IMG/VR virus record: IMGVR_UViG_3300044712_000037
Span: 1 to 31,037 of that record
DNA: 31,037 bases
Source: a virus
Direction: 5' to 3' (one strand)
A program made the position numbers and the translations under genes. Position 1 is the first letter of the stretch. The number at the start of each line of letters is the position of its first letter. The notes beneath the pieces were generated by a model that did not search any database, had not been told where the DNA came from, and worked only from the letters and a program-made list of their open reading frames with translations. Below are positions 11,731 through 26,116 of this stretch, piece after piece.

Positions 11731-12054
11731 TTGTCTAGATTAGGCAAACTCAAACAGAATCAAGAAGTATATGCTGATGGTGATGGCGGATTAATCATTG
11801 AGACTAAGGTCGATTTGACATCCATTATCGAAGCCAATAAAGCACAATACAATGAACGAAGCGGTAAAGGTGGATGGGGTGAAGAAATCCTAGACCCTAG
11901 AAACAAAATCGCTACCATTCCTAACATTATCATTGACGAGCTGAATAAAAAAGGCATCATGCGTGGATACGCTGTTGTTGATAGCCCAGCTTTCAAAAGA
12001 TGGTTAAATGACCCAGATAATGTGGTTTTTAGAACAAGGGGTGGCAATGTCTAA
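11731..12054 (+). CDS. Hypothetical structural-region protein, 107 aa
   Basis: The start is TTG 11731, supported by AGGAGAGCAAA directly upstream; the product starts MSRLGKLKQNQEVYADGDGG. It continues LIIETKVDLTSIIEANKAQY, then GKGGWGEEILDPRNKIATIP and ends WLNDPDNVVFRTRGGNV. The WLNDPDNxxFRTRxGxV ending is common in phage proteins found just after the capsid gene; I know of no tested function, and a head-completion role is only inferred from position. The glycosyltransferase gene starts inside its last codons. Confidence 0.75.
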   Translation: MSRLGKLKQNQEVYADGDGGLIIETKVDLTSIIEANKAQYNERSGKGGWGEEILDPRNKIATIPNIIIDELNKKGIMRGYAVVDSPAFKRWLNDPDNVVFRTRGGNV

Positions 12055-12676
12055 AGTTGGTATATGTATCCCTGCAAGGGGACAGGTAGAAGTAGGAACA
12101 GCCTTTGATTTGGCTGCTTTGGTGAACTATACAAATAAGAACTCAAGAATAGAGATTAAGCTCTATACATCTATGGGAACTTTGATATTTGACCAAAGAA
12201 ACAATATGGTAGAAACAGCCTTACAAGATGGCTGCACACATATCCTATTTATAGATGCAGATATGAGATTCCCTAATGACTCTCTTATCCGCTTGTTGAA
12301 TCACAATAAGGGCATAGTAGGGGTAAACGCTACTACTAGGTCTGAGCCAGTAAAGCCTACAGCTAAGAAGCTAGAAGTGTTTGATGACCATGTAGTATGG
12401 CATCCAGTCTGGTCTAAAGAGGCAACAGGCATTGAAGTAGTTGATGGAATCGGCTGTGGGGTAATGCTCATTGATGTCGAGGTTATTAAGGGCATAGAAA
12501 AGCCCTACTTTTATTTTGAACAATTGCCAAACCATAAGATACTAGGTGAGGACATATACTTCTGCATTAAAGCTAGTGATGCAGGGTATAAGACTTATGT
12601 AGACCACGATTTGTCTAAAGAGATTAAACACATTGGGTCGTATCAGTACGGATGGCATAATATAGAGATGGATTAA
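12047..12676 (+). CDS. Family 2-like glycosyltransferase (GT-A fold)
   Basis: I choose ATG 12047 (MSKVGICIPARGQVEVGTAF), which has AAGGGGTGGCA upstream and overlaps the previous stop, over the in-frame ATG at 12008. The 209-aa protein has a GT-A nucleotide-sugar fold: a first strand VGICIPARG, the metal-binding DAD motif at 70-72 in ILFIDADMRFP, and a C-terminal LGEDIYFCIKASDAGYKTYV segment typical of the catalytic Glu-Asp region. It would transfer a sugar from a nucleotide donor; the acceptor is unknown. Lying between capsid and tail-adaptor genes, it could modify a virion protein or host surface glycan. No signal peptide or membrane segment is present, so it acts in the cytoplasm. Confidence 0.8.
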   Translation: MSKVGICIPARGQVEVGTAFDLAALVNYTNKNSRIEIKLYTSMGTLIFDQRNNMVETALQDGCTHILFIDADMRFPNDSLIRLLNHNKGIVGVNATTRSEPVKPTAKKLEVFDDHVVWHPVWSKEATGIEVVDGIGCGVMLIDVEVIKGIEKPYFYFEQLPNHKILGEDIYFCIKASDAGYKTYVDHDLSKEIKHIGSYQYGWHNIEMD

Positions 12677-16052: not shown

Positions 16053-16849
16053 TGTATAGACTATTACCACCATTCGGCTCTGACCAGCGTGGTGTGGCTG
16101 AAGTAGTCAATGGCATTATGAATGGTAAGACCAATAATACTGGTACTGTCACTCTTGCTACTGGTGGTGCAACAACTACAACAATTACAGATGCTCGAAT
16201 TGGTGTAGATTCAGTTATATTGCTTAGTGCAACAGATGATATATCTTCTACTGCTTACTACCCTTATTTAGGTGTGCAAGATAGCACAGACCAAGTAGCT
16301 CCAAATACAACAGGTGTCAATATCATTACTTTTGACACAACAGATTATGCTTTAGGAGCAAGTCTAGTAGATAGCACAAAGCTAAAAGCTGACTATGCTG
16401 GTTTATACAATATTCAGTTTTCAGTTCAGTTAATCAATACAACTAATGATACTCAAGAGGTATCTATTTGGTTTAGAAAGAATGGTACAGATGTAGCTGG
16501 TAGCAATAGCGAATTTAGTATGCCAGCTAGAAAATCTACTGGAACAGCATCTAGAGGTATTGCAGCATTAAACTTCTTTATTGCATTGCAAAAAGATGAT
16601 TATGTTCAGTTAGCTTGGAGACCTAGTGATGTAGGAGTATCTATTGAGCATTTTCCTACACAGACAAGCCCTACAAGACCAGCAACACCTTCAGTAATAG
16701 CAACCATGAGCTACTTATCTAGCAATGGTTATACAAGCAATATTTATACAAACCCTTATATTAGTTCAGTAACTAATGGAAGTGCAGTAATTAGTCATCC
16801 TGCTAACTCAATCGCAGGTAAAACTTTTGATTATGTAGTAGTAGGATAA
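16052..16849 (+). CDS. Virion protein with jelly-roll-like receptor/fibre domain
   Basis: The 265-aa product starts MYRLLPPFGSDQRGVAEVVN, then GIMNGKTNNTGTVTLATGGA, a domain common in podovirus tail proteins. The middle holds a C1q/TNF-like jelly-roll pattern: LKADYAGLYNIQFSVQLINT, VSIWFRKNGTDVAGSNSEF, AALNFFIALQKDDYVQLAWR and VIATMSYL. Such domains form trimeric knobs on fibres. The last 50 residues are Ser/Asn/Tyr-rich strands. It is probably a small fibre, plug or tail-tip component; the fold call rests on the strand pattern. Confidence 0.65.
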   Translation: MYRLLPPFGSDQRGVAEVVNGIMNGKTNNTGTVTLATGGATTTTITDARIGVDSVILLSATDDISSTAYYPYLGVQDSTDQVAPNTTGVNIITFDTTDYALGASLVDSTKLKADYAGLYNIQFSVQLINTTNDTQEVSIWFRKNGTDVAGSNSEFSMPARKSTGTASRGIAALNFFIALQKDDYVQLAWRPSDVGVSIEHFPTQTSPTRPATPSVIATMSYLSSNGYTSNIYTNPYISSVTNGSAVISHPANSIAGKTFDYVVVG

Positions 16850-16862
16850 AGAGGAAAATATC

Positions 16863-17780
16863 ATGGCAGTCCAGACAACTTCATCAACATCAAACATAGA
16901 CCCAGCATTACTTCCTTACCTTACCCAAGGTTTAGAGAGAGCGCAAAGCCTATTCTTGACAGGTGAGCAGCCTAGATTCTTTGAAGGTCAGACCTTTGTA
17001 AGTCCTTCTGCTCAGACTGAACAAGCATTGGCTCAACAAGAGGCTTTGGCAACTCAGGCTAGTCCTGTATTGCAACAGGCTCAACAAGCCTACCAACAGT
17101 CTCTAGGTGGAGTTGGTGCAACTGCTGCTGGCTCATTCCTAGGTGGAAACCCTTATCAAGCTCAGATGATGCAAGCTGCTACAAGACCATTAGAGCAACA
17201 GTTCTCTAATCAGGTATTGCCAAGCATTGCTAGTCTTTATTCTCGCTCTGGTCGCTATGGCTCTGGTGCTATGCAACAAGCTCTTGGTCAGGCTACAGAA
17301 GCCTACACAAGAGGTCTAGGTGATATTACTTCTAATATCGCAGGACAACAGTATCAGCAAGAGCGAGGCTTACAGCAACAAGCTCAATTGGCACAGGCTC
17401 AATTAGCAGCAGCAGCTCCTCAGATTTATGGTCAGCAATTCTTGCCTTCTCAGCAGTTAGCACAAGTTGGTGCAGCAAGAGAGCAGATTGCAGCTCAACC
17501 ACTACAAGAGCAGATGGCTCGCTTCAACTTTGGTCAGCAGTTACCATACCAGCAGTTATCTGGTTACTTATCTTCAGTTTATGGCTCACCTATGGGTAAC
17601 TTTGGCACACAGACACAAACTACAAATATGCCAAGAAATCCTTTGATGGGTGGTTTAGCAGGTGCTGGTCTAGGTTATTTAGGCGGTCAGTTCTTAGGTG
17701 GTAGTAGCTTGATGAACCCAGTTTCTCAAGGTGTTATCGGTGCTGGTTTAGGTGGTGTATTAGGTGGATTGTTATTTTAA
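16863..17780 (+). CDS. Internal virion / DNA-ejection protein, Gln/Ala-rich
   Basis: The 305-aa product starts MAVQTTSSTSNIDPALLPYL and has a long Gln/Ala-rich helical centre (QQAQLAQAQLAAAAPQIYGQ). The last 60 residues are Gly-rich and hydrophobic (GGLAGAGLGYLGGQFLGG and IGAGLGGVLGGLLF), which could enter a membrane. Proteins with SxYSRSGRxGSGAMxQA segments followed by a glycine-zipper tail are widespread next to ejection genes in podoviruses. It is likely packed inside the head or tail and released into the host envelope with the DNA. It is followed 18 bp later by the acyl carrier protein gene. Confidence 0.7.
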   Translation: MAVQTTSSTSNIDPALLPYLTQGLERAQSLFLTGEQPRFFEGQTFVSPSAQTEQALAQQEALATQASPVLQQAQQAYQQSLGGVGATAAGSFLGGNPYQAQMMQAATRPLEQQFSNQVLPSIASLYSRSGRYGSGAMQQALGQATEAYTRGLGDITSNIAGQQYQQERGLQQQAQLAQAQLAAAAPQIYGQQFLPSQQLAQVGAAREQIAAQPLQEQMARFNFGQQLPYQQLSGYLSSVYGSPMGNFGTQTQTTNMPRNPLMGGLAGAGLGYLGGQFLGGSSLMNPVSQGVIGAGLGGVLGGLLF

Positions 17781-17798
17781 TTAATGCTAATATAAGGC

Positions 17799-18080
17799 AT
17801 GGATTACATACAATTATTCAATGCTGTAGCAAAAGTTGCAAAGCCAGCTTATGTGCAATGTAGTGATTTAAAAGACTCAGAGGAGAAATTCTATGAAGCT
17901 GGTTTTGATAGTTTAGATATGTTGTTAATTGGTATATATTTCTGTGAGTTATACGGAATACCAGAGGAAATTGGTAAGCAGATGAAGCCTACTAATCTCA
18001 AAGAAATGCTTGAGTTCATACAAGCCAATAAGTCAAAAGAGCCAAAGTCAGTAGATGAAGCAATTTCCGATATTCAATGA
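17799..18080 (+). CDS. Acyl carrier protein
   Basis: The 93-aa product has the carrier-protein motif EAGFDSLDMLLIGIYFCELY, with Ser38 in the DSL motif as the phosphopantetheine attachment site. The family layout is kept: a first helix (MDYIQLFNAVAKVA), the LKDSEEKFYEAG loop, the DSLDML helix II, and later ELYGIPEE and a last helix with NLKEMLEFI. The C-terminal 15 residues (KSKEPKSVDEAISDIQ) extend past the usual end. It would carry an acyl chain as a thioester; a host holo-ACP synthase would have to attach the cofactor. AAGG lies 4 bases before the ATG. Its TGA overlaps the ketosynthase ATG, so the two are made together. Confidence 0.88.
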   Translation: MDYIQLFNAVAKVAKPAYVQCSDLKDSEEKFYEAGFDSLDMLLIGIYFCELYGIPEEIGKQMKPTNLKEMLEFIQANKSKEPKSVDEAISDIQ

Positions 18081-19132
18081 CCTATTTAACTTATTACAAA
18101 ACAGCATATACAGAACAATCTGAGTTATTGGAAGATTTACCTTTTCCGCAAAGAGTTCATTGGTTTCCAGATACATATAAGAGAGTTAATCTAGGGCTAA
18201 CTTACCCACCACACAAGTTGGCTGAGAAAGTCCTAGATGCAGAAATACTTAAAGAACTAAGGGATAACCCTAAGAAGTCAGCGTTTATCTTAGCCTCTGG
18301 CAATGCTCACTTTGCAGGTATTAACCCTAGAGCTAATAACACACAATTAAGCTATCAGTATAAGTTTCTACCATTTACTTTGACTCAGGTATATGCAGGT
18401 CGTATAGCGCAATCATGCGGTGCTACAGATTACATATCTACTGATGCTTCTGCCTGTGCAAGTAGTCTAAAAGTAATGTTTGATGTCAAGATGTTGATGT
18501 CAGTAGGATTTGAAAGAGTCATAGTTTTAGCTGTAGAAGATGCAGTTAGTAACTCGGTATTAGAGTTCTTTGGTGAAGCAGGTGCTTGTCTAAGAGATGA
18601 GAATGTAAAACCAAGTGCTTTTGACAGTCAAAACTATGGTTTTTATGTAGGTCAAGGTGCTGCTTTCTGTGTATTTGAGAAAGAACCTAGCATCAAGCCT
18701 ATAGGAAAGCTAATAAACGCTTATACAGCCTCTGAGCCATGCGATAATGCAATAGGACAGAGGGAAGATGGTCTAGGGTTCAAAAGAGCCATAGAAGGTG
18801 TTTTAGAGGGTTCTAGCATCACAGTAGTAAAGACTCATGGAACAGGCACTAAGTCTAATAACATGGCTGAAAGAAATGCTTTATCAGGATTAACTGGATT
18901 TAAAGCAACATCATTCAAGCCTAAGATTGGTCATACTATGGGTGCTAGTGGATTACTAGAAACTTTGATGTTGTTGGAAAGTTTGCAAAAAGGAATTATT
19001 CCTAAAATAGAGAATAGAACTGAAGAAGATTCTGTTTTCTTATCAGAGGATGCTACTTATAATGGTGGTCAAATATTAAGTTTGGCTGCTGGCATGGGTA
19101 ACATTTATTCATCAGCTTTATTTGAGGTCTAA
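18077..19132 (+). CDS. Beta-ketoacyl-ACP synthase-like enzyme (KAS I/II, FabF-type)
   Basis: The thiolase-fold condensing enzyme keeps the full Cys-His-His triad: Cys127 in STDASACASS, His254 in VKTHGTGTKSNN and His286 in KPKIGHTMGASG, with Glu265 in NNMAERNAL. Lys283 in KPKIGH is also kept. FabF-type enzymes join malonyl-ACP to an acyl chain held on the Cys. At 351 aa it is shorter than FabF (about 410), mainly through a divergent N-terminus (start MTYLTYYKTAYTEQSELLED). Partner reductase, dehydratase or acyltransferase genes are absent. It overlaps the acyl carrier protein gene by 4 bp (ATGA) and is embedded among ejection-protein genes. It may condense, load or transfer acyl chains; the product cannot be read from sequence. 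Confidence 0.85.
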   Translation: MTYLTYYKTAYTEQSELLEDLPFPQRVHWFPDTYKRVNLGLTYPPHKLAEKVLDAEILKELRDNPKKSAFILASGNAHFAGINPRANNTQLSYQYKFLPFTLTQVYAGRIAQSCGATDYISTDASACASSLKVMFDVKMLMSVGFERVIVLAVEDAVSNSVLEFFGEAGACLRDENVKPSAFDSQNYGFYVGQGAAFCVFEKEPSIKPIGKLINAYTASEPCDNAIGQREDGLGFKRAIEGVLEGSSITVVKTHGTGTKSNNMAERNALSGLTGFKATSFKPKIGHTMGASGLLETLMLLESLQKGIIPKIENRTEEDSVFLSEDATYNGGQILSLAAGMGNIYSSALFEV

Positions 19133-19133
19133 A

Positions 19134-19568
19134 ATGGTCGTTGATAGTAATGAGCAACAATTAAGCTCAAAAGAGATAATTGAGATAGCTGCTGTCGAAA
19201 CCAAGACACCATTCCCACCACAGCAAGTATATTCAAGTGTATTGGCAGAGATTAATCAGCCTAATACTCGCACCTATTGGTTTGGTAACACTATTTTCCC
19301 AGTCATTGATGCTGGTAAAGGACAGGGATTCTTTAGAGGTTTAAATGCTGATACAGCAGAGAACTATGTTAATAACAGTATCGAGTTTGTTAAAGCAGCC
19401 TATGAAGATGGCTTCGATTTGTTACTAACAGAGTTTTATGACCCAACTATTTTGAATATTTTTAGAACTATTGCCATGAACCCACCTAACCCAGATATGG
19501 GCTACAAGGTTAAGCAAGGTGATGGTGTTTATCAAGTAACTCTACAGCTAGGAAAAAGGAGACAGTAA
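19134..19568 (+). CDS. Small virion-region protein resembling T7 gp13 (GNAT-like fold)
   Basis: I choose ATG 19134 (MVVDSNEQQLSSKEIIEIAA), preceded by GAGG, over the upstream TTG. The 144-aa product continues with RTYWFGNTIFPVIDAGKGQG, a helix FVKAAYEDGFDLLLTEFYDP, then ILNIFRTIAMNPPNPDMGYK and ends in a strand YQVTLQLGK. The order strand, helix, FxxTIxx(N/G)F and a last beta-strand is like the compact acetyltransferase fold of T7 gp13-type proteins, which are needed in ejection-protein assembly. The similarity is by layout only. Its place right after the ACP and ketosynthase genes makes an acyl-related role possible but unproven. Confidence 0.55.
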   Translation: MVVDSNEQQLSSKEIIEIAAVETKTPFPPQQVYSSVLAEINQPNTRTYWFGNTIFPVIDAGKGQGFFRGLNADTAENYVNNSIEFVKAAYEDGFDLLLTEFYDPTILNIFRTIAMNPPNPDMGYKVKQGDGVYQVTLQLGKRRQ

Positions 19569-20581
19569 TGGGCGGTATTGTTAGTTCTGTTACGAACCTT
19601 GTCTCTGATGCAGTAGAAACTGTAGGTAATGTTGCAGAAGATGTTGGTAGTTTTGTTGTTGATACTGTAGACAATACAGTTCAAGCTATTGCTGATGACC
19701 CACTAAAAGCTGCTGCTGTCGCTGCTGCTGCTGTTGCTACAGGTGGCACTTCACTTGCTGCCACTCTTGGAACTGCTGGTGCTGCTGCTGCTGGTGCTGC
19801 TGCTGCATCTACTGCGATTGATTTATCTCGTGGTGAAGATTTAGATGATGCCCTTAAAAGTGGTGCATTAGCTGGTGGTGCTGCTTATGTTGGCGGTTCT
19901 TTGCTTGGTGGTAGCGGTGCAGGAACAGATTATTTAGGTAGTCAAGCTCTTGGTGATGCTACTACAGGTGCAGTAGGAACTGGAGCTACAGGCATTGGTA
20001 TCAATGCAGGTGCATCAGGAGTAGGCATTAATGCAGGAACAGGTAGCTTATTAGGCTCAACCCTAGAGATGGGTAGTGCATTACCTACACTTGCACCAGA
20101 CACAGGCTTTGGATTAAATCCTGCTCCTTCTACTACAGAATTTGGCACATTTAACCCAAGCACAGTTAGCCCACCTAGTATTGATACAAGCTCACTTGGC
20201 TCAATGGAGTATCTTGGTGGTTCTACAACATTGCCAGTAGGCACAGCAGGATTAACAGCAGAACAAATTGCTGCATCTGGAACTATTGGTAATGTGGGTG
20301 TAAACGCATCAAGCGGTCTAGGTTATTTAGGTGGCTCAGAATCATTGCCTACAGGAACTGCTGGTATTAAAGGTGTTGCAGCTCCTACAAGTTTAAATCT
20401 TGGCGATATTCAAAGAGGCATGAGATTAGCCAATACTTTATTTGGTCAGCAACAACAAGCACCACAGCAAGGTTTTGCTCCAAGGCAGATTAAACCTGCT
20501 GGTGCAGTTGATTACTCACCAATACTATCTTTATTGCAACAAAGAGCTTCAACTCCAAATATCTATTCATTATTAGGATAA
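19568..20581 (+). CDS. Internal virion / ejection protein, Ala/Gly-rich
   Basis: The 337-aa product starts MGGIVSSVTNLVSDAVETVG, continues with amphipathic helix and then a long Ala/Gly stretch (AAAVAAAAVATGGTSLAAT and GTAGAAAAGAAAASTAI) that could insert into a membrane. The middle is Gly/Thr/Ser-rich and low in complexity, with two YLGGS-(T/E)-LP-GTAG units. The C-terminus has a Gln-rich NTLFGQQQQAPQQGF segment. Similar proteins with an N-terminal membrane-active region lie beside ejection genes in many podoviruses. It begins one base into the previous stop (TAATG). Confidence 0.65.
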   Translation: MGGIVSSVTNLVSDAVETVGNVAEDVGSFVVDTVDNTVQAIADDPLKAAAVAAAAVATGGTSLAATLGTAGAAAAGAAAASTAIDLSRGEDLDDALKSGALAGGAAYVGGSLLGGSGAGTDYLGSQALGDATTGAVGTGATGIGINAGASGVGINAGTGSLLGSTLEMGSALPTLAPDTGFGLNPAPSTTEFGTFNPSTVSPPSIDTSSLGSMEYLGGSTTLPVGTAGLTAEQIAASGTIGNVGVNASSGLGYLGGSESLPTGTAGIKGVAAPTSLNLGDIQRGMRLANTLFGQQQQAPQQGFAPRQIKPAGAVDYSPILSLLQQRASTPNIYSLLG

Positions 20582-20585
20582 CAAA

Positions 20586-21773
20586 ATGGCACTATTAGGA
20601 ACTAACCCACTAGCTCAATTGCTCGGTCAAGAGCAGATGCAAAAGGCAGAGAATACAGCCCTAAATATGGGTGCATTAAATGCTATTGCACAATTACTAT
20701 CTATGTCTGGAGCGCAAGCTAGACCAGTAGGAACAGGTCAAGCACTAGGTCAAGCCCTTATCGGTGGCATTGGTGGCTATCAGTCAAGCATGGATAAGAC
20801 ACTTAGCGATATGGCTAAATCTATGCAAATTCAAGATATGCTTGAAAAGCAAGCTCGTGAGAAGCGTTTTAGAGAGCAAATTGGTGCTGCATACACTACT
20901 AGACCATCAGGAACTGGATTGACAGCTACAGGTAAAGGCTCACAAGCTGAAATGCTTTCAAGACCTGAGTTTGGCGGTGATTTCTTGCAGGAAACAGTAG
21001 GTGCTTTGCAGTCTAATCCAAATTTGCCACAAGAGCGTGTATTAGACCAGCGCAAATTCATGGCTGCTTTGTCTGAATACTCACCTTTAGAATATGCAAA
21101 ACTAACAATGACTGGTGAAAAAGCTCCTGATGCTATCAGAACCTTTGAAGCATTTAGCAAAATGAGTCCAGAACAACAAAAGCAATTCTTGGCTTTTAAA
21201 GCATCTGGAACACCACAAACAAACATCAGTCTTGGCGAAAAAGGAATTGATAAGATTACATCTGAAGCTGTAAAAGGTTATTACGACAGAGCAGGAAGTG
21301 CTAGACAGATGGCTATTGCATCTAATGTTGTAGCTGATTTGCTTGAAGGTCAAGGCGGTGGTAAAGCGGTTCAAATTGGAACTGATTTGGCTAGAACACT
21401 AGGTCTTGGAGACAAGGGAAGCATTGCTTCAGCAGATGCAGCAGCAGCTTTAGTAACACAAACAGCAGTTAAAGTAAGACCAGAAGGCTCTGGTTCTACA
21501 TCTAACATTGAATTTGATGCTTACAGACAGTCTGTGCCGAGCCTAGCTAATAGCGCACAAGGTCGCAGACTAATGGCTAATATCAATACTGCTTTTGCGG
21601 ACAGAAATGAATTGCTTGCTGATTATGCTGCTCAACTTTACAGCCAAGGTAAGTATTCATTAAAAGCTATGAGAGAATATGACCAGTCATTAGGTGCAAT
21701 TCTTCCACCAAACTTTAATGAGCAAGTAACAGCTATTACAGGTAAAGCTCCTGTTCAGCGTAGAAGTTTCTAA
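20586..21773 (+). CDS. Internal virion / ejection protein, 395 aa
   Basis: The product starts MALLGTNPLAQLLGQEQMQK, followed by LNMGALNAIAQLLSMSGAQA and a helical region with DMLEKQAREKRFREQ. The C-terminal half has LTMTGEKAPDAIRTFEAFSK, MSPEQQKQFLAF and a globular helical end with IEFDAYRQSVPSLANSAQGR and LYSQGKYSLKAMREYDQSLG. The latter segments also occur in internal proteins of other phages. It lies between two other ejection-type genes and starts 4 bp after the previous stop. It would form part of the ejected complex spanning the host periplasm. Confidence 0.65.
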   Translation: MALLGTNPLAQLLGQEQMQKAENTALNMGALNAIAQLLSMSGAQARPVGTGQALGQALIGGIGGYQSSMDKTLSDMAKSMQIQDMLEKQAREKRFREQIGAAYTTRPSGTGLTATGKGSQAEMLSRPEFGGDFLQETVGALQSNPNLPQERVLDQRKFMAALSEYSPLEYAKLTMTGEKAPDAIRTFEAFSKMSPEQQKQFLAFKASGTPQTNISLGEKGIDKITSEAVKGYYDRAGSARQMAIASNVVADLLEGQGGGKAVQIGTDLARTLGLGDKGSIASADAAAALVTQTAVKVRPEGSGSTSNIEFDAYRQSVPSLANSAQGRRLMANINTAFADRNELLADYAAQLYSQGKYSLKAMREYDQSLGAILPPNFNEQVTAITGKAPVQRRSF

Positions 21774-21781
21774 GGATATAT

Positions 21782-23758
21782 ATGTCAAAAACAGTATTCA
21801 AACTAACGGATGGAACTGAAGCAGATTTTGATTCTAAGACACCTTTGTCTAAAGTAGATGAAATTTTAGCTAAGAATGGATTAGAGCGAGATAAGTCGCA
21901 AAAGCCTTTTGTTGAAAAAGAAGGCATTGCTGGCATGACTGATGAAGCTCTTGCTAAGATTAACTATCCAATTGTTCAAGGTGCTGCAGGTTTAGGTGGT
22001 TTGGCTGGTTTTTTACAAAGAGGTGTAGAGGCTGGCACAGAAAAAATTGCAGAAATGTTAGGGTATACACCAGAACAAGCTCAAGCTGGTCGTATGGCAG
22101 TTAGATTGCCTACTCCTAGCGATATTACTAGAGCTGCTGGTGATGCAGGTGTTCCAATGCGTAGAGCAGAAACAATTGGCGGTAGAGCTGCTCAGAATTT
22201 AGTGCGAAATGTTGTATCTGCTCCTGTAGCTGGTGCTGTAGTTCCATCATTGCTATCTGCTGTAGGTGAAGAAGCTGTGGCTTATCCATTTTTAGGAACT
22301 CCAATGGAGTCTACTGCTAGAACTGCTGGTGCATTGTTTACACCACTAGTTCCTGCTCCTACAATGTTTAGGTCTCCTTTAGAGAGAATGTATGCAGAGT
22401 CTACAAAGCGAGTAACTCCACAAGAGTTATCTACTGCTGAAAGATTACAACAGATGGCATCAAGACAACAGATGCCAATTACATCTGTAGAAGCTATCCA
22501 GCAAACAACAGGCGGTAGAACAAACTTACCAGCTTTGCAAAGACAGCTAGAAGCTAATCCTGCATCTGCACCTTTAATGGCAGAGTTCATGGGTAGTCGT
22601 GGTGAAGAAACATTGTCTACTCTACAAAGAATGTTCCCACAAACAACTAGAGAAAGACTTGGCACAGAAGCTCAAAGAGCAGCAGAAAGAACACTAGCAA
22701 AGACTCAAACAGAGTTAAGCACTTCTCCTGCTGGACAGGCTTTTGAAGCTGTTAAATCTAAAGCAATCCCACCTTCTTGGATGAAAAACCTTGAGAATGA
22801 AAGTGCTGTTCTTGCAGAAGCATCTAGAACTGTAGATAACACAGCTACATATCAAGATATGATGAAGGGTTACAAGGATAACTCTATTGCTAAAATTGAA
22901 GCAATGCGCACTTATCTAAAAGATAAATATGACAATTTAGCAGGTGCTGCAGGTGGTACAACAGTTACAGGCGAAATGAGAGCTTATGACCAAGCTCGCA
23001 AGAAGTTATTAGAAAAAGCAGACTCTCAAATTCCTGATTACAAGGCAGCTAGAGAAAACTACTTCCAAGCGAAAGAAAAGATTGTTGCTCCAGTTCAAGA
23101 AAGCCCTATTGCTAAGATTGCAAAGGATAATGAGGTTTCTGTGCAGTTTGCAGAGGTATTCGCTAAGAATCCTGCTGCTGTGAACTTAACACCACAGAAG
23201 GTCACAATGACAATGAAATCATTGGCTCAGTCTGATGCAGCATTGCCAAAAGACTTCTTAACTCAATATATGAGGTCATCTTTAGAGCAAGTAGAAAGCC
23301 AAGCATCAAGAGCTGCTGGAACTACTGGTGCTAAGTTTGCGAACACTATCGTTAAAAACGCTACACAAAAAGAAAACTTACGAGCTGCATTTAAAGAGGT
23401 TTATGGTCAGTCTGGTGATAGAGCAGCAAGAGGTTTAAATAATCTAATTGATATTCTAGAAGCTCAAGGTCGCAGATTGCCTGCTGGCTCTCCTACTGCT
23501 GAAAAAGGCATGATTGCTGCTGAATCTGTTTCAACTGTTTCAAAAGCTGCAAAGAATCCATTAGAGGCATTGGGAACTGCTTATCAAACCATTTTCTATA
23601 GAAAAGACTATGAGAATGTTGCGAAAGCTATCACTAGTCCAGATGGTATTAAGATTTTAGAAAACATGGCAAAAGCAGGAAAAAATCAGAAACAATTAGC
23701 TACAGGTGCTGTAGAATTGCAGAGATTAATTGATGCTCTTGACGAAGGCGCAGAATAA
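21782..23758 (+). CDS. Large internal virion / ejection protein, 658 aa
   Basis: The product begins with a short domain MSKTVFKLTDGTEADFDSKT - LSKVDEILAKNG, often seen at the start of such proteins. A helical region rich in Ala follows with a possible membrane-active stretch (VSAPVAGAVVPSLLSAVGE, about 140-165). The remaining 450 residues are predominantly helical and charged. No lytic transglycosylase or other enzyme motif is visible, unlike T7 gp16. It is the largest of the ejection-type set and would contribute to the DNA channel. AAGGATATAT precedes the ATG; the tail fibre gene follows. Confidence 0.65.
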   Translation: MSKTVFKLTDGTEADFDSKTPLSKVDEILAKNGLERDKSQKPFVEKEGIAGMTDEALAKINYPIVQGAAGLGGLAGFLQRGVEAGTEKIAEMLGYTPEQAQAGRMAVRLPTPSDITRAAGDAGVPMRRAETIGGRAAQNLVRNVVSAPVAGAVVPSLLSAVGEEAVAYPFLGTPMESTARTAGALFTPLVPAPTMFRSPLERMYAESTKRVTPQELSTAERLQQMASRQQMPITSVEAIQQTTGGRTNLPALQRQLEANPASAPLMAEFMGSRGEETLSTLQRMFPQTTRERLGTEAQRAAERTLAKTQTELSTSPAGQAFEAVKSKAIPPSWMKNLENESAVLAEASRTVDNTATYQDMMKGYKDNSIAKIEAMRTYLKDKYDNLAGAAGGTTVTGEMRAYDQARKKLLEKADSQIPDYKAARENYFQAKEKIVAPVQESPIAKIAKDNEVSVQFAEVFAKNPAAVNLTPQKVTMTMKSLAQSDAALPKDFLTQYMRSSLEQVESQASRAAGTTGAKFANTIVKNATQKENLRAAFKEVYGQSGDRAARGLNNLIDILEAQGRRLPAGSPTAEKGMIAAESVSTVSKAAKNPLEALGTAYQTIFYRKDYENVAKAITSPDGIKILENMAKAGKNQKQLATGAVELQRLIDALDEGAE

Positions 23759-23776
23759 TTAACTAAGGAATAAATC

Positions 23777-26116
23777 ATGGCAAAAGTAAAAATCTCAGAA
23801 TTTGATGTAAACCCAGATAACAATACCGATATTAATAATATTAATATTGCAGAAGGATGCGCACCATCAGGCATTAATAATGCTATTCGTCAATTGATGT
23901 CTGACTTGAAAGAGTTTCAGACAGGCGCAGGTGGCGATTCAATTACTGCTGTAGGAGTTTACTCAGACACAGTAGGAGAAAAGACTTCTGGAGCAGGTGT
24001 CACAGTAGATGGTGTTTTGCTTAAAGATAATGGTATTACTGCTAGTGGCACTAATGTCCTAAGTGGAACTACTATCCCATCAAGCAAGACTCTAGTAGTC
24101 ACTACTGATATTGGCACAAGTGTTCAAGCCTATGATGCTGACACAACTAAGAATGATGTAGCCAATACTTTTACTGCTAATCAGATTATCTCTGTCACAG
24201 ATAACAGCAATGCTGCCCTTCGTATCACTCAGCTAGGCACAGGTAATGCTTTGTTAGTAGAGGATTCTACTAATCCTGATAGTACTCCTTTTGTTGTAAA
24301 TGCTGATGGTTCTGTTGGCATAGGTGTTACAACTCCTACTTCTTTACTTGATATTGCTGCTGATGGAGTTGTTCAACCATTAATTACAAGATATTCAACA
24401 GATGGTAATCCTTCAAGATTATTTTTACGAAAATCTAGAGGTACAAGAAGTTCACCAACTTCAGTAGCATCAGGTGACATAGTTAGTGAATTTACATTCA
24501 GTGCTTATGATGGTGCTAACTTTATTCAAGCAGCTCGCATTGATACAGTCATAGACGGCACTCCTGGCACAAACGATATGCCAGGTCGCTTAGTATTCTC
24601 TACTACTGCTGATGGTGCATCTAGTCCTACAGAGAGAATGAGGATTGATAGTGCTGGTCGTGTTGGTATTGGCGGTAACAGAACAGATACAAATTTAGTA
24701 ATGGCTAAAAGTATCACAGGAGCTACAACTGTATTTGGTTTGCTTAGTAATGGTCAAATTCAATCGGATGTGACAACCCAGTACTATGGATTTAATACTG
24801 GAAATGGCACGCAAGCAGCCAGCTTTACACTTGGTGCATTAAGTCATTACAGAGCTACTCAAGGAACATTTGGTGCTGGTTCAGCAGTAACAACTCAACA
24901 CGGATTTATTGCAGAAAGTACTTTAACAGGTGCAACAAACAACTTCGGCTTCTACTCCAACATAGCAAGTGGCACAGGTCGCTGGAACTTCTATGCTGCT
25001 GGTACTGCTGATAACTATTTTGCTGGTAGTTTAGGTATTGGAACGACTGGTACTGAAGCTAAATTTACTGTTGAATCTGGAACACAGTTTGCAATTGCAT
25101 CTGCAAGAACTACAACATCAATTCTTGCTAGAGGTACTGGAACTGCTGGTGCAGGTGCTTATGGTGGTTCAATTACTTTTGCACAAATTAACTCATCTAG
25201 ACCTTGGGGTGCTATTGCTGGTGTTCAATACTCAACAGATGTAGACCAAGGTGGACTAGCTTTCTTTTATAAATCTGGAGCAACAACAAACGATACTGTT
25301 GTTGAAGGCATGAGATTAGATGCTGCTGGTAATGTAGGTATTGGAACAAGTAGTCCTCAATCAAAACTCCATATTGCTGGTTCTACTTTTGTTACAGGAG
25401 ATACTGGTTTAAGCGGTATTACTGCTGACGGCATTACTACAAGATTCTTAAGCAGCGTTGCATATCTTCAAGCAGTGAATGTGTCATCAGGAACTGTCTT
25501 AGGTGGTAGAGATATATCTCTTGATGGCAATCAGTTGCTATTCAGGACTATTAGCGGAGCATCTTTTACAGAACGCATAAGAATTGATAGCTCTGGTAAC
25601 TTGCTAGTGGGGACTACGAGTGCTACTGGTTCAAGAGCTGATTTTTTCTATGACCCAGGCTCTTCAATAACTCCCGTAATATCAACTCGTCATCAATCTT
25701 CTACTGGCTCATCTTACGCAACTCATTTAAGTTTCTTAAATAATTCTGGAACTCAAGTTGGTTATATTAGTGCAAACGGAAGTGCAACATTTTATGGAAC
25801 ATCATCTGATTATCGCTTAAAAGAAAACATTGCACCAATAACGGGTGCTTTGGCTAAGGTTCAAGAACTAAAACCTGTGACATACAAATGGAAAGCTGAT
25901 GGTTCTAATGGAGAAGGCTTTATTGCTCACGAACTTCAAGAAGTATTACCTGAGTGTGTAGTTGGTGAAAAAGATGCAGTAGATGCAGAAGGCAATCCAC
26001 AGTACCAAGGCATTGATACTTCATTCTTAGTAGCTACATTAACTGCTGCTATTCAAGAACAACAAGCAATCATCAACGACTTAAAAACTCGTATTGAAAC
26101 TTTAGAATCTAAATAA
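23777..26116 (+). CDS. Tail fibre/spike with C-terminal S74 self-cleaving chaperone
   Basis: The N-terminus (MAKVKISEFDVNPDNNTDIN, then GCAPSGINNAIRQLMSDLKE) is the usual virion-binding part of podovirus fibres. The body has repeated beta segments with GIG(T/G) turns (VGIGVTTPTSLLDIA, GRVGIGGNRTD, SLGIGTTGTEA, NVGIGTSSPQSKLHIAG). Residues 676-779 are an intramolecular chaperone of the peptidase S74 family: SSDYRLKENI, with Ser677 and Lys682 in the Ser-x4-Lys dyad spacing, LKPVTYKWKADG, GFIAHELQEVLPE and a final coiled coil. It helps the fibre fold as a trimer and is then cut off before the Ser. This protein is probably the main receptor-binding fibre. Confidence 0.9.
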   Translation: MAKVKISEFDVNPDNNTDINNINIAEGCAPSGINNAIRQLMSDLKEFQTGAGGDSITAVGVYSDTVGEKTSGAGVTVDGVLLKDNGITASGTNVLSGTTIPSSKTLVVTTDIGTSVQAYDADTTKNDVANTFTANQIISVTDNSNAALRITQLGTGNALLVEDSTNPDSTPFVVNADGSVGIGVTTPTSLLDIAADGVVQPLITRYSTDGNPSRLFLRKSRGTRSSPTSVASGDIVSEFTFSAYDGANFIQAARIDTVIDGTPGTNDMPGRLVFSTTADGASSPTERMRIDSAGRVGIGGNRTDTNLVMAKSITGATTVFGLLSNGQIQSDVTTQYYGFNTGNGTQAASFTLGALSHYRATQGTFGAGSAVTTQHGFIAESTLTGATNNFGFYSNIASGTGRWNFYAAGTADNYFAGSLGIGTTGTEAKFTVESGTQFAIASARTTTSILARGTGTAGAGAYGGSITFAQINSSRPWGAIAGVQYSTDVDQGGLAFFYKSGATTNDTVVEGMRLDAAGNVGIGTSSPQSKLHIAGSTFVTGDTGLSGITADGITTRFLSSVAYLQAVNVSSGTVLGGRDISLDGNQLLFRTISGASFTERIRIDSSGNLLVGTTSATGSRADFFYDPGSSITPVISTRHQSSTGSSYATHLSFLNNSGTQVGYISANGSATFYGTSSDYRLKENIAPITGALAKVQELKPVTYKWKADGSNGEGFIAHELQEVLPECVVGEKDAVDAEGNPQYQGIDTSFLVATLTAAIQEQQAIINDLKTRIETLESK

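Follow-up and report, generated by a model that had tools for sequence, protein, structure and literature searches.

Why should a short-tailed phage carry genes for an acyl carrier protein (ACP) and a ketosynthase (KS) within its block of ejection-protein genes? The locus that raises this question lies in a viral sequence of 31,037 nucleotides, analysed here at its full length and referred to as the window. A first-pass annotation had recognised the ACP and a complete KS, with coding regions overlapping by 4 bp, and had regarded both as functional-looking enzymes embedded in the late ejection-protein block. The two genes lie and overlap exactly as it described, with their catalytic residues intact (Table 1), and the invariance of these residues among relatives, together with the gp7-like neighbour directly 5' of the unit, supports the view that both enzymes are probably functional and belong to a podovirus ejection-protein context. 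Its inventory of partners held only in part: no match to a phosphopantetheinyl transferase was found within the window, as it had stated, but a GNAT-fold putative acyltransferase encoded directly downstream had been overlooked, as had the conserved N-terminus of the protein encoded by the fourth gene.

Table 1. Features of the ejection-protein block, in window coordinates
Feature	Position	Strand	Description
P22 gp7-like DNA ejection protein	16863..17780	+	adjoins ACP upstream; phrog_4287 'DNA ejection protein', E 4.5e-18
Exchange unit	17781..20506	+	ACP, KS, GNAT and acceptor minus its last ~25 codons; block replaced in sister phage L334
ACP	17799..18080	+	93 aa; phosphopantetheine Ser38 in DSLD (GFDSLDML)
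KS (ketosynthase)	18077..19132	+	351 aa; Cys127, His254, Lys281, His286; divergent, virus-specific clade
Third gene, GNAT-fold putative acyltransferase	19134..19568	+	144 aa from ATG 19134 ('P19122')
Fourth gene, proposed acceptor, ejection-block protein	19568..20581	+	337 aa; starts M-G-G-I-V, then amphipathic helix
Next ejection-block ORF	20586..21773	+	395 aa; unchanged across module swap
Large ejection-block ORF	21782..23758	+	658 aa; unchanged across swap; in L334 of equal length with almost identical start MSKTVFKLTDGTEADFDSKTPLS

An alternative TTG start of the third gene at 19122 is possible, and the fourth-gene protein is rich in Ala, Gly and Val. In MW202545, the only named phage carrying the cassette in the phage collection searched, an SLT transglycosylase is annotated downstream of it. 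Glycosyltransferase matches were also seen: a weak one (Anp1-like) in an ORF between the capsid and tail genes of the window (12008-12676), and a strong one of the GlcNAc type (PF11397, E 6e-52) in a gene adjoining the ACP upstream at another locus (L030:6712-7662).

A widespread viral ACP-ketosynthase pair

Searched alone, the ACP of the window matched no Pfam family. PF00550 was matched by three of 30 relatives (best E 6e-4), and a profile of the family matches known ACPs among solved structures (best E 8.5e-5). The serine of the DSL motif, Ser38, is present in all 136 distinct relatives, in which Asp37-Ser38 and Asp40 are invariant, and K60 and P16 are also conserved. Each of the 17 cassette genomes scanned contains a single ACP match, and none was found in a scan of four sister contigs without the cassette.

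The KS is recognisable from its own sequence, matching both Pfam ketoacyl-synthase domains above the cut-off (E 4e-13 and 4e-10), while the profile of its family matches FabF structures at an E of about 1e-27. The Cys-His-His triad and the lysine before the second histidine (Cys127, His254, Lys281 and His286) occur without exception in all 143 distinct KSs; these residues are common to FabF, FabB and the type II polyketide ketosynthases, which belong to the same superfamily. However, the phage enzyme is set apart from them. It scores 76.7 bits against the FabF equivalog model TIGR03150, below the curated cut-off of 493.75, lacks some 60 residues relative to E. coli FabF, and reads GMGN where FabF has the motif GFGGTN, meaning the gate phenylalanine is missing. 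In a tree with cellular KSs, the phage sequences form one separate clade with 100/100 support on a very long branch, far from FabF. A second tree retained few cellular sequences after a motif filter that removed many FabF, and carries a warning of long-branch attraction; the KS tree is relied on here solely for the phage clade being separate. Between the window and L003, dN and dS were 0.015 and 0.219 for the KS, 0.028 and 0.406 for the GNAT, and 0.156 and 1.994 for the ACP, and as judged from these values all three genes are under strong purifying selection.

When viral contigs were scanned with the KS of the window, 34 relatives at 50-97% identity were recovered, and family profiles found at least 563 relatives of the KS, and 294 of the third gene, in IMG/VR. 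The system occurs widely among viral contigs from the environment. The KS family was found in one of 84,980 prokaryote genomes, on a contig of a Balneolaceae metagenome-assembled genome that has tail-like genes and is phage-like in appearance. KS matches in short records of Listeria and Enterococcus phages appear to stem from contaminating host DNA. The first-pass annotation had proposed both a search of viral genomes and a KS tree, and had considered recent capture of host DNA with no phage relatives. ACP-KS pairs proved to be common among viruses, and recent capture of the pair from a host is ruled out by the many viral relatives, the phage KSs forming their own clade, and the one prokaryote genome carrying its copy among phage genes.

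Gene order was read in the best 80 loci per scan; many of the contigs are fragments, and a gene missing from a contig is not thereby missing from the virus. The order ACP-KS-GNAT was found in 171 of 190 loci, 169 of them intact and two with a split third gene. Four of the 190 lack the ACP only, with the contig ending just upstream, and 15 have the ACP and KS without the third gene, on incomplete contigs or in another context. The ACP directly precedes the KS at every locus read with enough upstream contig, and a KS is present at all 80 loci recovered by the third gene alone. The commonest spacing at both the ACP/KS and KS/GNAT junctions is a 4-bp overlap, which suggests that the three genes are translationally coupled.

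At some loci (L024-L028, L033 and L132), the ACP-KS pair instead lies among replication genes, and is adjoined by a SNF2-type helicase wherever the contig reaches. In the 59-kb genome L024, the pair is about 17 kb from the GNAT and on the opposite strand, with the GNAT still directly upstream of a protein starting MGAVAEVV. One contig with a relocated pair also encodes an AcpS (L028:1692-2015; PF01648, E 7.8e-15), an indirect sign that the ACP may be loaded with phosphopantetheine in vivo. This was the only one of 34 phage records to match PF01648, and the ketoreductase, dehydratase and malonyltransferase families (PF13561, PF07977 and PF00698) were matched in none of the 34.

A GNAT-fold protein and its downstream neighbour

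The third gene matches no Pfam family, NodA included, and no PHROG. Its AlphaFold2 model, built with 21 sequences (pLDDT 93.6), has the element order a-a-b-b-b-a-b-a-b-b, and the PDB matches listed for it are all GNATs, the best being HP0935 (Z 10.7, rmsd 2.7 over 124 residues). Others include RimI (Z 10.5), Ard1 (10.2) and NatC (9.9), placing N-terminal acetyltransferases among the best matches; HlyC, LuxI and FeeM are absent from those listed, and are not thereby excluded. The model hence identifies the third-gene product as a GNAT-fold protein, a fold that is not by itself proof of catalysis, and its role as an acyltransferase is putative. A protein of this fold at another locus (L015:9107-9787) has a C-terminal extension of about 80 residues. 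The canonical CoA P-loop, [QR]xxGx[GA] after strand 4, is absent from its usual place in the family, where the site reads as a conserved FxALNAD. This absence was considered as an argument for an ACP donor and dropped, since the Pfam-recognised GNATs of sister phages likewise lack the canonical P-loop.

The protein encoded directly after the GNAT has a conserved beginning. Of 120 distinct proteins in this position, 119 carry Gly, Ser or Ala as their second residue and 113 carry Val as their fourth; in a reduced set of 32 representatives that share less than 50% identity across the N-terminal 40 residues, the corresponding numbers are 31 and 30. The typical start in relatives is M-[GSA]-[AG]-V-V, and the motif M[GSA][AGVSI]V is found in 113 of the 120 proposed acceptors, versus eight of 732 other long ORFs at the same loci. 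A small residue at position 2 is common among proteins from which the initiator methionine is removed. The acceptor in the window (MGGIVSSV) carries Ile instead of Val as its fourth residue, and is hence among the seven that miss the motif, and the L117 acceptor is an exception without the N-terminal motif. By helical hydrophobic moment, the first 45 or so residues correspond to a strongly amphipathic helix: the median moment z is 3.4 to 3.7 for segments starting at residues 2-21, falling to 1.6 by residue 41 and 0.3 by about residue 61. In the L004 and L006 acceptors the motif is kept, though the sequence after it is simply glycine-rich.

Exchange between sister phages and candidate roles

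A natural swap defines the limits of the unit. The window and the sister phage L334 are 92.5% identical over 16832-17780, a stretch that ends with the final base of the upstream gene, and 94.8% identical over 20507-23912, while the sole match to L334 in the 2.7 kb between these flanks is 96 bp at 80%. The replacement in L334 consists of a GNAT-like ORF of about 130 residues and a 245-residue protein starting MSGG; the latter is homologous to the window acceptor in its body and C-terminus, and much less alike over the N-terminal 110 or so residues. The GNAT-like ORF (L334:7906-8316) has no ATG, GTG or TTG near its expected start, and an ATT overlapping the upstream stop is suggested instead. 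Relatives of the upstream ejection protein, at 70-96% identity, are mostly without the cassette, and the ACP-KS pair is dispensable for the slot because these sister phages have a GNAT-like ORF and no ACP-KS.

The occupants of the slot differ between sister phages, as do the proteins that follow them. The first family, of Pfam GNATs (E 5e-14 to 2e-8), precedes proteins with Cys at position 2 in 21 of 21 distinct pairs (18 MCGG, two MCGS and one MCSS), against none of the 19 pairs involving other families at the locus (Fisher p 8e-12, the loci being related rather than independent). After the second family come MSGG or longer starts (MRFN and MRLN), while the third, of phrog_610-like ORFs, is followed by MGGV in five of five cases and the fourth by MS[SK]S in three of three. 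Known acetyltransferase profiles match only the first family and, weakly, part of the second. Across these sequence pairs, the type of enzyme at the locus tracks the N-terminus of the acceptor. The sister acceptors that begin MR[FL]N (L343, L348, L373, L375 and others) have a conserved stretch, LPxxAFxHCGDxKIKxQGGGGG, and possibly represent another modified or processed front end; a faint echo of this stretch is seen in the L117 acceptor. A remote relative of the GNAT (L415, E 9.5e-11) has neither KS nor ACP within its 35.6-kb contig, hence the donor in some phages may be host acyl-ACP or acyl-CoA.

The exchange of four genes as one unit between near-identical phages suggests that a fatty group is made and attached to the ejection protein. 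By analogy with the systems discussed below, we propose that the genes form a dedicated protein-acylation unit, in which an acyl-ACP is built and the GNAT-fold protein attaches its acyl group to the N-terminus of the ejection protein, and we give this reading a probability of about 0.58. Points against it are the sister phages that fill the slot with no ACP-KS, the L415 contig, the L117 acceptor, how common small second residues are, and the lack of ketoreductase and dehydratase genes. Holo-ACP would be formed from the phage protein by the host or, in some relatives, by a phage AcpS; the phage KS would then lengthen an acyl chain on it, and reduction of the 3-oxo product and completion of the chain may fall to the fatty-acid enzymes of the host. 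Removal of the methionine would expose the N-terminal Gly, Ser or Ala of the ejection protein, and the GNAT-fold enzyme would transfer the ACP-bound acyl group to the amine of this residue. The N-terminal acyl group and the amphipathic helix would together aid insertion into the host envelope during DNA ejection. Of the roles guessed at in the first-pass annotation, acylation of an ejection protein is the best supported, because a GNAT-fold protein and a conserved acceptor N-terminus adjoin the ACP-KS pair downstream and are exchanged with it.

The co-variation of the GNAT-fold protein and its neighbour would also be expected if the former had no catalytic role and served the ejection protein as a chaperone or scaffold, since a chaperone would likewise co-evolve with the N-terminus it binds, the ACP-KS pair then having a separate task, for example loading the GNAT with a ligand. 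T7 gp13, whose model also has the GNAT fold, is indeed annotated as a 'probable scaffold protein'. Yet such a role leaves unexplained the invariant Ser of the ACP, the invariant Cys, His and Lys of the KS and the constant association of both proteins with the GNAT, and the slot in sister phages is often occupied by Pfam-recognised GNATs; we consider it unlikely. Somewhat less probable again is an auxiliary metabolic role for the ACP and KS, in which the pair changes host membrane lipids late in infection and adjoins the GNAT merely as a convenience of the operon. Phage ACPs have been interpreted in this way before (PMC11705849), alteration of host lipids was among the first-pass suggestions, and the relocated pairs among replication genes would fit it. 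The idea loses ground because, apart from the one AcpS, no lipid gene family was found in the 34 records, and because the pair is exchanged along with the N-terminus of a virion-block protein; moreover, a genome with a relocated pair retains the GNAT and acceptor elsewhere.

It is also conceivable, though very improbable, that the unit makes a small acylated molecule, such as an N-acyl amino acid or a homoserine-lactone-like compound, with the GNAT in a role like that of FeeM or LuxI. An ACP, a KS and a GNAT would be the right minimal set, and N-acyl amino acid synthases are acyltransferases that use acyl-ACP (PMC8762209), but this would account neither for the GNAT preceding a protein with a conserved N-terminus even after the ACP-KS pair has relocated, nor for the joint exchange of GNAT and acceptor.

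Known systems and the ejection slot of T7 and P22

The enzyme folds in the unit are all known, and its principle resembles that of NodF-NodE-NodA, while the system as a whole, with its putative function, fits no known kind that we found. NodF is the ACP and NodE the KS (PMC5080398 has the two reversed). In that system, a special acyl chain is made by an ACP and a KS dedicated to it, and an N-acyltransferase moves it from an ACP to an amino group (PMC5080398). The phages likewise have a dedicated, adjacent ACP and KS, plus a GNAT-fold putative N-acyltransferase, but their unit is virus-encoded, their GNAT is not recognisably NodA, and the proposed acceptor is a protein N-terminus rather than a chitooligosaccharide. 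As NodA is among the Pfam families that fail to match the GNAT, the unit may be said to work like NodF-NodE-NodA without being a member of that system. The N-acyl amino acid synthases of the FeeM/FeeL type, which have a GNAT-like fold, and HlyC, an acyl-ACP-dependent protein acyltransferase that modifies a membrane-inserting protein at internal lysines, share with the phage GNAT its proposed acyl-ACP donor; they differ in having no dedicated KS, and no sequence relation between them and the phage GNAT was found. The phage unit is a member neither of NodF-NodE-NodA nor of the N-acyl amino acid synthases, which are instead its closest working analogies. Phage-encoded ACPs in Alteromonas phage R22Y and others have been described as auxiliary metabolic genes (PMC11705849). 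These are lone ACPs read as acting in host lipid metabolism, whereas the window has a linked ACP-KS-GNAT-acceptor unit.

The position of the GNAT has counterparts in model phages, as both T7 (gp13-gp14) and P22 (gp14-gp7) encode a small protein directly 5' of the first ejection protein, the same slot as in the window. In T7, gp13 is followed immediately by gp14, the outer-membrane pore protein (PMC8954989). The model of T7 gp13 (L195:1501-1914; pLDDT 93.3) has the complete canonical GNAT order, with a Z of 12.2, and both it and the model of the window GNAT match a DUF2824 protein, from the family of P22 gp14. No sequence relation of the window GNAT to T7 gp13 or P22 gp14 was detected by hhalign with single sequences, the fold alone being common to them. 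T7 gp14 has a Met-Cys start in every relative read, despite differing N-termini (MCW versus MCEP), although in one relative the called start is two codons upstream of Met-Cys. Unlike the window, the T7 and P22 slots have no annotated ACP or KS, and P22 gp7 is proteolytically trimmed.

A tentative generalisation, which we hold to be possible with the odds somewhat against it, is that in podoviruses a GNAT-fold enzyme encoded before the first membrane-active ejection protein acylates the N-terminus of that protein, with ACP-KS-GNAT representing an elaborate, donor-making form. The acceptor residue would then be Cys in T7 gp14 and the MCGG proteins, and Gly, Ser or Ala in the phages described here, with enzyme and N-terminus exchanged as a cassette. 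The GNAT fold of T7 gp13 and the Met-Cys start of gp14 make this general hypothesis testable in a laboratory phage.

In the open-access literature we found no account of a virus with genes both for making an acyl donor and for attaching it to the virus's own infection machinery, and ACP and KS genes in viruses might otherwise be mistaken for genes that alter host metabolism. If the protein-acylation reading is true, it would offer a testable role for the small unexplained proteins that occupy the same slot in model phages, such as T7 gp13. Lipidation of an ejection protein before packaging would then be a new step in the passage of DNA across membranes by short-tailed phages.
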